In this document: piece after piece, positions 7,289-39,460 of the stretch
Layout: each line of letters starts with the position of its first letter
How positions within the stretch are numbered: position 1 is the stretch's first letter
Origin: Thiobacillus sp.
Lineage (GTDB): Bacteria > Pseudomonadota > Gammaproteobacteria > Burkholderiales > Thiobacillaceae
Direction: 5' to 3'
NCBI GenBank assembly: GCA_024709685.1
Contig: JANJWF010000187.1
Coordinates: 1 to 40,846, forward strand
Length of the DNA: 40,846 nucleotides
Made by a program: the position numbers and the translations under genes
The notes under the pieces: model-generated
Database searches by the model: none
The model's input: the letters and a program-made list of their open reading frames with translations, nothing else
What the model was told of the DNA's origin: nothing

Positions 7289-7320
7289 TGTTGGTTGTTG
7301 GAATCAGTAATGCCGAGAGT

Positions 7321-7434
7321 GTACCCGCAAGGGGCACGCCGGATTCGTAAAGCCGCTAAAGCGGCAACGACTCCGCTGTACCCGCAAGGGGCACGCCGGA
7401 TTCGTAAAGCCGCTAAAGCGGCAACGACTCCGCC
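7321..7434. repeat. Two tandem copies of a 57-bp palindromic (REP-like) repeat
   Basis: Copies at 7321-7377 and 7378-7434 differ only at the last base (56/57). Each contains cggattcgt-aaa-gccgct-aa-agcggc-a-acgactccg, able to form a long hairpin. Confidence 0.85.
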
Positions 7435-21715: not shown

Positions 21716-22653
21716 TTGATGCGGTAGAACCGGCTGGCTACATCCTTGCCTCTGACCGAATCGAGACGTCCGTTCACCGCCTCGCCCAGCGCAGCCAGGC
21801 GGTCAGCCGGGTGCGGATGGGTCGTGTAAAGCAGGCTGGTCCGGCTGTCCTTGGCCGGCAAGCCCGCCATGTCCTGCAGCACGGCGGGCAGTCCCCATGG
21901 CTCATAGCCGGAGCGGGCGGCAAGCACGATGCCGACGCGATCGGCTTCGAACTCGGCATTCTTGTCGAGCTTGCGCGCCATGATCTCGGCGCCGTTGCCG
22001 ATCAGGTTCTGCACCACAGGATCGCTGTCCTTCGCCTTCTTGCTGGCGGCCTGCCCCAGTGCACCGATCAGGCTCGACTCCTTGAGCACCTTGAGGTGAT
22101 GCTTCTGGGTGACGTGGGCGATTTCGTGCGCGAGCACGCCGGCGAGTTCAGCCTCGTTGTTGAGGCGCCGGTAGAGCCCCTTGGTCAGGAAAACATAGCC
22201 CCCCGGTGCCGCAAAGGCATTGATGTCTTCGGTATCGAGCACGCCGAAATGCCAGGTAATGTCCTTGCGCCCGCTTTGCAGCGCGACCCAGCTGCCCACC
22301 AGGTTGACGTAGTTCTGCAGCTTGTCGTCACGCACCAGCGGCACGGCACCCAGGAGGTCGCCGGCGATCTGCCTGCCGATGCGCGTTTCCTCCTCCGGCG
22401 AATAGCCGGTCAGCAGTGTAAGGCCGAGCTGACGGGCATCGATTTTCTGCTTGGCCGGCGGCGGGGAAGCGGCGCCTTGCGCCTCCGCTGGCGCCTGATC
22501 CGTCGGCGGCACCGGCGCCGGTTGCGTCGGCTTGTCCTTGTTCAGTTCCTCCTTGACGCGATCTTCGAGCAGCTTGCCGAAGTCGAACCCCCCGGCGGCG
22601 CCGCCGGCGAAGGAGACGAGCGAAACGGCCAATATCATCAGTTTGAGTTTCAT
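21712..22653 (-). CDS. M48 family metalloprotease (secreted)
   Basis: Signal peptide MKLKLMILAVSLVSFAGGAAGG; HEIAHVTQKHH; EFEADRVG. Confidence 0.9.
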   Translation of the reverse strand: MKLKLMILAVSLVSFAGGAAGGFDFGKLLEDRVKEELNKDKPTQPAPVPPTDQAPAEAQGAASPPPAKQKIDARQLGLTLLTGYSPEEETRIGRQIAGDLLGAVPLVRDDKLQNYVNLVGSWVALQSGRKDITWHFGVLDTEDINAFAAPGGYVFLTKGLYRRLNNEAELAGVLAHEIAHVTQKHHLKVLKESSLIGALGQAASKKAKDSDPVVQNLIGNGAEIMARKLDKNAEFEADRVGIVLAARSGYEPWGLPAVLQDMAGLPAKDSRTSLLYTTHPHPADRLAALGEAVNGRLDSVRGKDVASRFYRIK

Positions 22654-23183
22654 CAGTTGCTCTCCCATGTCGAGGCCGGCTGCGCAGCCTGGGGCTTGGG
22701 CAGGTCGGGCACCTTGGCCACAGTCAGACCGGACTGGCCGGCAAAGCTTCTTGCCTGGGCCGCCGTCACGCTCAGGGCTTCCATCCGCGCCAGTTCCTCG
22801 GCGTTGAATTTGGCCTGCTTCAGGTCCTCCTCGTTCAGGCCGCGCAGGCCGGCCACCGCCACCACACGGCCGGGATCGGACCGGGTGGTGGCGGCGCCGA
22901 CGACGTCGCGTGCACCGACACCCGCCACTCCGCCTGCGCCTGCGCGCACCGACAGCAGCCGGATCCAGCCGGTGGATCTGCCGGCCCTCACCTGCAGCCA
23001 GCCGCCCTGCTTGGCAAGGATGTCGACGCTCGCCCCTTTAGCCACGCTTGCCGTCACCTTGGACGTCGAGGCGGGCTGGCTGTAGAGTTTTTCGGCACGC
23101 AATACCGTGCCGGGAGCGGCCCAGGCAGATACCGATGCGGCGCACAGCGCCAGCGCGGCGGCAGGAATAAGAAATGTCTTCAT
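22653..23183 (-). CDS. Secreted SH3-like (bacterial SH3) domain protein, paralog 1
   Basis: Signal peptide MKTFLIPAAALALCAASVSAWA; GTVLRAEKLYSQPASTSKVTASVAKGASVDILAKQGGWLQVRAGRSTGWIRLLSV. Stop overlaps ATG of M48. Confidence 0.82.
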   Translation of the reverse strand: MKTFLIPAAALALCAASVSAWAAPGTVLRAEKLYSQPASTSKVTASVAKGASVDILAKQGGWLQVRAGRSTGWIRLLSVRAGAGGVAGVGARDVVGAATTRSDPGRVVAVAGLRGLNEEDLKQAKFNAEELARMEALSVTAAQARSFAGQSGLTVAKVPDLPKPQAAQPASTWESN

Positions 23184-23375
23184 CGTGTGTCTCTCCGTGT
23201 GAAGCGGAACTGTATGGCCAGCCACCCGCTGGCGCAAGCGCGGCAGATGACGCCTTCGTGCCATCCAGGCTCAAACGCCCTCACGGCACCACCGAGCCGA
23301 GTTGGTCCGCTCGTCATCACGTAGTCGAGTGAGCCAGTCACATCGCTGAAGGATGCAGGTGGACTCGCCAATATC

Positions 23376-23413
23376 CAATATCGCCAGTTTGATTTGCATC
23401 AGTTGCTCTCCCA
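23376..23413 (-). pseudogene. Remnant copy of the 5' end of the M48 protease gene, left by duplication
   Basis: + strand ccaatatcgccagtttgatttgcatcagttgctctccca here versus ccaatatcatcagtttgagttt-catcagttgctctccca at 22628-22666 across the paralog-1/M48 junction. Confidence 0.7.
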
Positions 23414-24244
23414 GGAAGACGACGACTGCGCAGCCTGGGGCTTGGGCAGATCGGGCACCTTGGCCACGGTCAGGCCGGACTCGCCGGCGAAGCTTCTCGC
23501 CTGCGCCGGCGTCACGCTCAGGGCTTCCATCCGCGCCAGTTCATCGGCGTTGAACTTGGCCTGTTTCAGGTCCTCTTCGTTCAGGCCGCGCAGGCCTGCG
23601 ACCGCGACGACGCGTGTCGGGTCCGATCGGGTCGTGGCGGCGCCCACCACATCGCCGATGCCTGCTCCGCCCAGGCCACCGGTACCGGCGCGCACCGACA
23701 GCAGCCGGATCCAGCCCGTGGCACCCCCCGCCTTCACGCGCAGCCAGCCGCCTTGTCTCGCCAAGATGCCGACGCTCGCGCCCTTGGCGACGGTCGCGGT
23801 GACCTTCGAGGTGGAAGCCGGCTCGCTGTAGAGTTGTTCGGTTCGCAGGACCGTACCTGACGCCGCCGTTTCAGGCAGCGATACCGGGGGAGGAACTGGC
23901 GGAGCCGCCGAAGGCGATTCCTGCATCTTCGCTGGCTCGGTGGCATCACCTGGCGCCACCGTGGCGATGGGAGACGTGGGGGTGGCGGTACGAGGTGCCT
24001 CGGCCGCCGGGGAAGATGTGGCGGGGTCGGTCCGGGGTGCCTCGGCGGCCGGCGGAGCCGCAGCGATATCGCTCCGGGGCGCCTCGGCGGCGGGTCCGTT
24101 GGCGGGTGCGCCGACGTCTTCGGTGCGATCGCCGCACGCGCCGAGCACTGTGGCAAGCGACACCATCAGCAAAACGGCTGCTGGTCGCTTGGCATTGGCC
24201 ACACATGGCAGAAGTGCGGCGGCTGGAGTCCTGGATATCTTCAT
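23399..24244 (-). CDS. SH3-like domain lipoprotein, paralog 2 with Pro/Ala-rich linker
   Basis: Lipobox-like VLGAC; three AEAPR repeats; C-terminal ~150 aa near-identical to paralog 1. Confidence 0.82.
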   Translation of the reverse strand: MKISRTPAAALLPCVANAKRPAAVLLMVSLATVLGACGDRTEDVGAPANGPAAEAPRSDIAAAPPAAEAPRTDPATSSPAAEAPRTATPTSPIATVAPGDATEPAKMQESPSAAPPVPPPVSLPETAASGTVLRTEQLYSEPASTSKVTATVAKGASVGILARQGGWLRVKAGGATGWIRLLSVRAGTGGLGGAGIGDVVGAATTRSDPTRVVAVAGLRGLNEEDLKQAKFNADELARMEALSVTPAQARSFAGESGLTVAKVPDLPKPQAAQSSSSWESN

Positions 24245-24354
24245 CGTGTCGTTTCCCCCTTTTTGTGGCGCGATCCGCAGCGATGCAGGCACGGCGATGA
24301 TGTTTTCATGCCATCGACAGCCCTTGCCCTTGCGGATGGCGTTAAGATGCCGCG

Positions 24355-36669: not shown

Positions 36670-36777
36670 CTTTTCGATCCCGGGCGCCCGCACGCTCGAC
36701 CGGCCTTGTTTACCCCGTAAAGTGATGCCGGACTCCGGTAAAATGCCACATTGCTGTTTACCGCCTTGCCCTCCCCC

Positions 36778-38409
36778 ATGGAAGCCACCCAAACCGCGCC
36801 GGCGCAGACCGGCGACCCCGCCCTGGCGCGCGACGTCAGGAAGCGCCGCACGTTCGCCATCATTTCCCACCCCGACGCCGGCAAGACCACGCTGACCGAA
36901 AAGCTGCTGTTGTTCGGCGGCGCGATCCAGATGGCCGGCACGGTGAAGGCGCGTAAAAGCGGAAGATATGCCACGTCCGACTGGATGGAGGTCGAGCGTG
37001 AGCGCGGCATTTCCGTGGCGAGTTCGGTGATGCAGTTCTCCCACGGCGACTGCGTGTTCAACCTGCTCGATACCCCGGGTCACAAGGATTTTTCCGAGGA
37101 CACCTACCGTGTGCTGACCGCGGTGGATGCCGCCATCATGGTGGTCGACGCCGCCAAGGGCGTGGAAGCGCAGACGATCAAGCTGCTGGAAGTGTGCCGC
37201 CTGCGCGACACGCCCATCATCACGTTCATCAACAAGATGGACCGTGAAGTGCGCGAGCCGCTTGAACTGCTCGACGAGATCGAATCGATCCTGAAAATCC
37301 ACTGCGCGCCGGTGACCTGGCCGATCGGCATGGGCAAGCGCTTCCAGGGCGTGTACCACCTGATCAATGACGAGATCCTGCGCTTCAAGGCGGGAGAGGA
37401 AAACGCCGACCAGCAGTTCGAGTCGCTGCAGGGCCTGGGTGAGGCGGCATTGAAGGAACGCTTCCCGCTGGAAGCCGATGCCCTGCAGTCCGAAATCGAA
37501 CTGGTACGGGGTGCCGGCGCCAGTTTCGATCTCGATGCGTTTCTGCAAGGCAGGCAGACGCCGGTGTTCTTCGGCTCGGGCATCAACAACTTCGGCGTGC
37601 GCGAAGTGCTGCGCGCGCTGGCCGACTGGGCACCACCGCCGCAGCCGCGCGAGGCGGTCGAGCGCACGGTCGATCCGATCGAGCCGAAGTTCACCGGCTT
37701 CGTGTTCAAGATCCAGGCCAACATGGACCCGCAGCACCGCGACCGCATCGCCTTCTTCCGCGTCTGCTCCGGCCGCTACAGCCCCAACATGAAAGTGCGC
37801 CACCGCCGCACCGGCAAGGAGATGAAGATCGCCAATGCCGTGGTCTTCATGGCCAACGAGCGCACCCGCATGGACGATGCAGTGGCGGGTGACATCATCG
37901 GCATCCACAACCACGGCCAGTTGCATATCGGCGACACCCTGACCGAGGGCGAAGCCCTGCAATTCAAGGGCATCCCGTACTTCGCTCCCGAACTGTTCAG
38001 CCGCCCGCGCCTGCGCGACCCGCTGCGCGCCAAGCAACTGAACAAGGGCCTGTTGGAGCTCGGCGAGGAAGGCGCGGTGCAGGTATTCGAGCCGTTCGCC
38101 GACAACACGCTCCTGATCGGTGCGGTCGGACAGTTGCAGTTCGAGGTCGTCGCGCACCGTCTGAAAACCGAGTACGGCGTCGATGCGACGTTCGAGAACG
38201 CAGGCATCCACACCGCGCGCTGGGTGACCTGTCCGGATGCCCTGCACCTCGCCGAATTCGCCCGGGCCAATTCGCTCAAACTGGCGAAGGACGTCGACGG
38301 CAACCTGGTGTATCTGGCCGACACGCGCGTGAACCTGTCGCTGGCGCAGGAGCGCTGGCCGAAGGTCGCATTCCACGACACCCGCGAGCACGGACAGCTA
38401 CTGAGTTAG
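36778..38409 (+). CDS. prfC: Peptide chain release factor 3
   Basis: [80 protein letters not shown]. Confidence 0.96.
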
Positions 38410-38553: not shown

Positions 38554-38877
38554 TCAGAACGTGTTGCGCTCTCCCGTGTAGAACACCGCCCATCCCTCAC
38601 TGGCGCTGGCGGCACCCGAAGCCCCCTTGAAATCCTTGCTCGCTGGAGGAATCGGGGCGCCCTGCCTCATATTGAACGTATCCCAACCTTTGCCTGCGGC
38701 GGCGGCAGCCGACGAAGTGCCTGAGTAGGGCTTGCCGGAGACAGGAATCGGGTCACCCTGTCCCATGTTGAACGTATCCCAGCCTTTGCCGGGTGCGGAC
38801 ATTGCGGCAGGCGCAAGCAATACGCCAGCGACGCCGATGAGACCGGAGATGAGGGAAACGGTTTTGAAGGTTTTCAT
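38554..38877 (-). CDS. Small secreted protein with two intact and one degenerate GKGWDTF repeats
   Basis: MKTFKTVSLISGLIGVAGVLLAPAAMSA signal; GKGWDTFNMGQGDP, GKGWDTFNMRQGAP, EGWAVFYTGERN; RBS aggag upstream. Confidence 0.8.
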   Translation of the reverse strand: MKTFKTVSLISGLIGVAGVLLAPAAMSAPGKGWDTFNMGQGDPIPVSGKPYSGTSSAAAAAGKGWDTFNMRQGAPIPPASKDFKGASGAASASEGWAVFYTGERNTF

Positions 38878-38991
38878 GATCGACTCCTGAGATGTGATAA
38901 CGGACGTCGCGAGACGTTGATTGCGATCCAGCCTCGGCGAGCCTAGGCCGGGATCGCACGGTTCAAAAGACTGAACCGGGGGAACGAGGTA

Positions 38992-39300
38992 TTACTGCGG
39001 CAGGGGTTGACCCGCGCCGGTGCGGAAGGTGTCCCAGCCCTTGCCGGCAGCCATGCTCACCTTGGCACCGTTCGCCTGATGAACCGCAACAGGTTCGCCT
39101 GCGCCGGTTTGGAAGGTGTCCCACCCTTTGCCGGGGCTGCCGCCGCTCTTCTGAGCGGACTGATGTACGGCAATGGCTTCACCTGCGCCGGTGTTGAAGG
39201 TGTCCCACCCTTTGCCGGGTTGATCCGCAAACGCCGGAAGCGCGACAAGAAAGGCAGAGACGCCCAATGCGCCCGTCAGTGTTTTCAATGCATTCTTCAT
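38992..39300 (-). CDS. Small secreted protein with three GKGWDTF repeats
   Basis: MKNALKTLTGALGVSAFLVALPAFA signal; GKGWDTFNTGAGEA, GKGWDTFQTGAGEP, GKGWDTFRTGAGQP; RBS aacgagga upstream. Confidence 0.82.
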   Translation of the reverse strand: MKNALKTLTGALGVSAFLVALPAFADQPGKGWDTFNTGAGEAIAVHQSAQKSGGSPGKGWDTFQTGAGEPVAVHQANGAKVSMAAGKGWDTFRTGAGQPLPQ

Positions 39301-39423: not shown

Positions 39424-39460
39424 AATATATCTTCTAATTGCAGTATCTGCAATATATCTT
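39424..39460 (-). promoter_or_regulatory. Candidate promoter/operator for the GKGWDTF genes
   Basis: Minus strand ttgcag-(17 nt)-tatatt; perfect inverted repeat attgcag-tat-ctgcaat (39437-39453) flanked by direct repeats aatatatctt (39424-39433, 39451-39460). Confidence 0.45.

Follow-up and report, generated by a model that had tools for sequence, protein, structure and literature searches.

Two adjacent minus-strand genes in the window, by which we mean the whole 40,846-nucleotide stretch of Thiobacillus DNA analyzed here, encode proteins of about 100 amino acids (aa) that consist of a signal peptide followed by three copies of a short aromatic motif 28 to 32 aa apart. They belong to what we call the GWD family, which is lineage-specific and occurs in one genus only among the genomes searched. 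The window pair represents branch A of this family, whereas the genes of branch B are paired with a gene for an exported serine protease that combines a Trypsin_2 domain with tetratricopeptide repeats (TPR). This protease-linked slot, which is located at paralogous loci and not inside the window, is the most interesting result of our analysis.

Sequence anatomy of the window pair and its family

The two reading frames lie 114 nucleotides (nt) apart, between genes that we take, from their sequences, to be prfC (36751-38409, plus strand) and radA (40828 down to 39635, minus strand). The features to which we refer below are the following.

39437..39453, no strand assigned: inverted repeat (ATTGCAG-TAT-CTGCAAT), some 140 nt ahead of the first gene (sequence search; unique in the window)
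38992..39300, minus strand: coding sequence for the 102-aa branch A protein of the GWD family (open reading frame call and relatives)
39226..39300, minus strand: predicted signal peptide of the 102-aa protein, MKNALKTLTGALGVSAFLVALPAFA (by eye: basic N-terminal residues, then a hydrophobic core and an AFA cleavage site)
39169..39216, minus strand: unit 1 of the 102-aa protein, GKGWDTFNTGAGEAIA (motif search, unit analysis)
39085..39132, minus strand: unit 2 of the 102-aa protein, GKGWDTFQTGAGEPVA (motif search, unit analysis; 87% DNA identity with unit 1 over 60 nt)
38998..39045, minus strand: unit 3 of the 102-aa protein, GKGWDTFRTGAGQPLP, one residue short of the C-terminus (motif search, unit analysis)
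38554..38877, minus strand: coding sequence for the 107-aa branch A protein of the GWD family (open reading frame call; 69% identity to the paralogue on contig C181, dN/dS 0.28)
38794..38877, minus strand: predicted signal peptide of the 107-aa protein, MKTFKTVSLISGLIGVAGVLLAPAAMSA (by eye)
38743..38790, minus strand: unit 1 of the 107-aa protein, GKGWDTFNMGQGDPIP (motif search, unit analysis)
38647..38694, minus strand: unit 2 of the 107-aa protein, GKGWDTFNMRQGAPIP (motif search, unit analysis)
38557..38601, minus strand: eroded third unit, C-terminal in the 107-aa protein, SEGWAVFYTGERNTF (unit analysis)

An earlier note on this DNA had described five near-perfect GKGWDTF copies and one eroded copy in these genes, and that count holds. 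The pattern GGNAARGGNTGGGAYNNNTTY matches the window at the five copies only, where shuffled sequences lead one to expect 0.00; the DNA form of GKGWDxF likewise occurs five times, always within the pair, against the same expectation of 0.00; and the eroded sixth unit, EGWAVFYTGERN, is present in the 107-aa protein. This erosion is peculiar to the window copy, and the C181 paralogue retains GGGWDVFYTGEGD. The regular spacing that had been reported is correct for the 102-aa protein (28 and 29 aa) and partly so for the 107-aa protein, where the distances are 32 and 31 aa and not 32 throughout. In both proteins unit 1 directly follows a cleavage site that is plausible by eye, in agreement with the proposed start of the array. 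A recent duplication may have produced units 1 and 2 of the 102-aa gene, whose DNA is 87% identical (the other units compared reach 60-68%). The mature proteins contain no cysteine and at most two histidines.

Both window genes have good ribosome-binding sites (GAGGATATTTAC-ATG and CAGGAGTCGATC-ATG), and such sites are conserved. Because the genes are so closely spaced and no convincing terminator was found between them, they may share one transcript. A search for a sigma-70-like promoter found none. The inverted repeat at 39437-39453, which is flanked by near-repeats of AAGATATATT and has neither a copy at the other family loci nor a second copy in the window, is a possible operator. Elsewhere in the window, a 57-nt unit with a small palindrome forms a perfect tandem duplication between two genes (7320-7433), and two adjacent paralogous exported proteins (22653-24292) have the same SH3-like C-terminal part, the second with an extra Pro/Ala-rich stretch.

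Four family members are present in the source assembly (79% complete): the window pair and one copy each on contigs C181 and C41. Across the bacterial family, members occur in 10 of 117 genomes, all 10 in the window's genus, and samples of 399 genomes from the order and 369 from the class contained no further true member among the best 12 to 13 candidates scored per genome, a depth at which distant members could escape. The earlier note recognized no named family, and neither Pfam, NCBIfam, PHROGs nor PDB sequences provided a convincing named-family match for the window proteins. A peptide-pattern search of GTDB contigs revealed no wider relatives and a search of plasmid sequences no relatives at all; the motif strings appear in no paper that we found, and general literature searches gave no relevant result. 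The GWD family is new to the libraries searched, although of a known general kind.

Several candidate relatives were rejected. Two viral contigs have only GKGWDSW in common with the family, within an unrelated 453-aa protein, and marginal profile matches in other genera proved on reading to be apparent chance matches in larger unrelated reading frames. Another possible parallel, the secreted FDxYTxGA repeats of Burkholderiales, was dropped as well: relatives with multiple units were sought in 100 genomes, which yielded six single scattered matches, about as many as the reversed control.

We read 14 members in full, and all 14 have a predicted signal peptide and exactly three units, which supports the earlier description of these proteins as secreted and answers, for these members, the question posed there of whether homologues always combine a signal peptide with multiple copies. 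The question of repeat-number variation, raised there for strains, can be answered for relatives: the number is fixed at three in all 14. The consensus of the 42 units is G-x-G-[W34/F8]-D40-x-[F30/Y9]-x-x-G37-x-G37-[E/D]-x-[I/L/V]-P, and successive units lie 24-34 aa apart. The motif and not the linker is conserved, as had been supposed, since the spacers vary freely while the units are kept. Values of dN/dS range from 0.17 to 0.39 within a branch and reach 0.40 between the two window genes; the proteins are therefore under purifying selection, and the codon-level constraint that the earlier note would look for in relatives is present. All of these sequence comparisons indicate that the window reading frames are real genes.

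Branch B, family C and the protease slot

Branch B comprises the C41 copy of the source assembly and members from six other genomes, and all seven sit at one fixed locus, divergent from the protease gene (the protease domain matches Pfam Trypsin_2 at 4.7e-26). On the far side of this locus lie genes that we presume from their sequences to be SlyX-, TlpA-, and CopD-like. At a threshold of E below 1e-60, the bacterial family contains 34 such protease genes, distributed over 33 genomes, and every one of them retains the catalytic His, Asp, and Ser. A secreted protein of about 100 aa is encoded beside 28 of them, 7 belonging to branch B and 21 to a second group, family C, and in no case do the two occur together in one slot. 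The family C neighbors are divergent in 18 cases and tandem in three (G085, G121, and G127); one of the 21 slots (G077 C28) was assigned by coordinates. As for the six other protease genes, G131 has a family C gene about 3 kb away, G035 has another small secreted protein, and no small protein was found near the loci of G010, G014, G004, and G136. The G035 protein (L174, 4211-4552), encoded directly upstream of the protease, carries YVGTS and two WDxxPNPD elements; it has no statistical match to GWD or family C, its scores not being convincingly above those of shuffles.

Family C (L104-L124, L134-L136, and L140) occurs in several genera of the bacterial family, mostly beside the Trypsin_2-TPR protease, and is characterized by the blocks NPDxxQSILND, ERGxGDTYGSVLLD, and PEKGxGDxYGSVLxD. 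It resembles branch B in size, signal peptide, short Gly-Asp-aromatic blocks, and the protease slot, a position that all seven branch B genes occupy and that branch A, including the window pair, does not. A Y/F-x-G-T-S/A/G element is common to 14/14 family C, 7/7 branch B, and 3/7 branch A proteins, against a chance rate, estimated by shuffling, of about 1-5% per protein. The wording of the units differs, however, and hhalign profile alignment of family C with GWD covers the signal peptide only, with no similarity in the mature part, where the YxGTS element alone is shared. In Pfam and NCBIfam, no entry scores above the cut-off for either family. A common descent of branch B and family C is plausible from the shared slot and the YxGTS element, but sequence statistics do not establish it.

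In the tree, the proteases that accompany branch B group together (support, 0.999), and the adjoining group includes that of G032, a genome with family C; this placement points to one switch of partner, from C-type to B-type. G065, G078, and G082 have identical proteases, which leaves fewer independent slot cases than the count; the three genomes (L065, L078, and L082) are assigned to two different genera, and the identity may represent transfer or a binning problem. Stops occur both in the protease of G002 and in the family C protein beside it, which fits either joint decay or sequencing error.

Branch A genes, the window pair included, occupy a different place in almost every genome, and no protease gene adjoins them; nor are branch A and the protease associated at the genome level (p = 0.24). 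At four of six places, redox genes (Ferritin_2, cytochrome c, or multicopper oxidase) are nearby. The C181 copy lies upstream of an adjoining Ferritin_2 and cytochrome c pair, the G117 gene lies downstream of such a pair, and the G125 and G024 genes lie upstream of a multicopper oxidase/cytochrome c cluster, with one gene intervening in G024. The remaining places are the prfC-radA interval of the window and, in G016, the vicinity of DedA-like and glucokinase-like genes. In G117, the pair is preceded by an ECF sigma factor gene, and all four genes stand in a row on one strand (L055, 6451-8517). Branch A and ferritin co-occur at the genome level with p = 0.004, a value that carries no correction for kinship; the repeat gene is present at 2 of 11 ferritin loci only, and the ferritin link is therefore not general. 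Glucokinase-like and small membrane-protein genes accompany branch A in G016 (L051) and family C in G077 (L179), possibly as a second shared slot.

Possible roles of the three-motif proteins

Our best explanation, which we offer tentatively, is that these are exported, probably unfolded proteins that show three short binding motifs to a partner in the envelope, and that the partner of branch B is probably the protease. Predicted export, three motif copies, and free spacers, the constant features of the family, together make the layout of a multivalent motif carrier. Removal of the signal peptide would leave a mature chain of about 75-80 residues that is probably unfolded; AlphaFold2 pLDDT values of 38 and 36 for the window proteins are a weak sign of such disorder, because only two sequences entered each alignment and low confidence is expected from such input anyway. 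The chain would display GxG[WF]Dx[FY]xxGxG[DE]x[IL]P three times at intervals of about 30 residues, the third time at or close to the C-terminus, and these short linear motifs would bind, as a trivalent set, to a periplasmic or envelope partner. In branch B, that partner would most likely be the adjoining protease, for which the small protein could be a dedicated substrate or, in view of the near-terminal position of the last unit, a ligand that binds the TPR part. The branch A pair of the window presumably employs its motif in the same way, perhaps in redox or stress settings of the envelope.

The signal peptide and three units in 14/14 members, the protease beside all seven branch B genes, the small neighbor at 28/34 protease genes, the invariant catalytic residues, the stops in both genes of G002, the redox genes near branch A, the absence of cysteine, and dN/dS values of 0.17-0.40 support this explanation. 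Against it stand the lack of a protease beside branch A and of a genome-level association between the two, the four protease loci without a small protein, and the restriction of the repeat gene to 2/11 ferritin loci; moreover, divergent neighboring genes can be conserved without functional cooperation. A broader reading, possible but to our minds doubtful, is that the secreted protease constitutes an undescribed envelope pair with a small, disordered protein of three motifs, that the wording of this small partner can be completely rewritten from family C to branch B while slot, size, and layout are kept, and that the branch A copies carry the module to new locations, the window among them.

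Gly/Ala/Ser/Pro-rich spacers between regularly placed aromatic motifs, together with several paralogues in one genome, would also suit a surface or matrix protein whose motifs act as stickers and hold many copies together at the cell surface or on a particle, the neighboring genes being incidental. Self-assembling repeats usually vary in number, however, whereas these always number three, and the slot is strongly conserved at the branch B and family C loci; we consider such a role unlikely. Distinctly unlikely is a small metal- or ligand-binding protein whose Asp/Glu/Gly/aromatic units hold an ion or a small redox-linked ligand. The redox genes near branch A, the His-rich spacers of some family C proteins, and sub-threshold matches to the calcium-binding repeat HemolysinCabind point toward it, but the cysteine-free, histidine-poor window proteins, the lack of generality of the ferritin association, and the poor fit to the calcium repeat (see below) argue against it. 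The ligand-binding repeat of the earlier note is accordingly possible in kind, although no known binding domain matches.

Its further suggestion of a precursor from which a repeated secreted peptide is excised, by a protease such as the Trypsin_2 neighbor of branch B, is weakened and now appears improbable. The near-identical units of the 102-aa protein and the protease itself speak for it, but the unit count is fixed, the units within branch B proteins differ in a position-specific order of GWD, GFD, and GWD versions, the Lys of GKG (position -2, a possible tryptic cut mark) precedes the core in 16 of 42 units, the spacers hold no conserved cut site, and no modifying enzyme was seen beside the loci. 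That the window genes are spurious or decaying frames without function is hardly credible, for although they score weakly in a simple codon-usage gene caller and one unit is eroded, the dN/dS values, the 14 related genes of the same layout, and the conserved ribosome-binding sites all contradict it.

With the three-motif carrier explanation, an orphan repeat becomes one half of a pair that can be tested: its short motif is under selection, its valency is fixed at three, and an exported serine protease with TPR is the candidate partner. A functional pairing would provide a simple model for fast-evolving exported disordered proteins that keep their role through sequence replacement; if the pairing is not functional, GWD would be one more lineage-specific secreted family without annotation.

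Comparison with known repeat systems

The GWD units recall RTX repeats (PF00353) as short Gly- and Asp-rich repeats in exported proteins. The HemolysinCabind scores of 13.4 and 11.1 bits, however, are far below the curated cut-off of 23 bits, and the tandem nonapeptide GGxGxDxUx does not occur; GWD has instead an aromatic core in a unit of about 14 aa, followed by a spacer, and three units only, 24-34 aa apart. An RTX reading has little support. Secreted low-complexity or disordered repeat proteins typically combine a signal peptide with short motifs and Ala/Gly/Ser/Pro-rich spacers, and the GWD proteins share this general plan. They differ from that generic kind in their fixed number of three units, in their strongly conserved W/F-D-x-F/Y core, and in having a branch that is tied to a protease gene.
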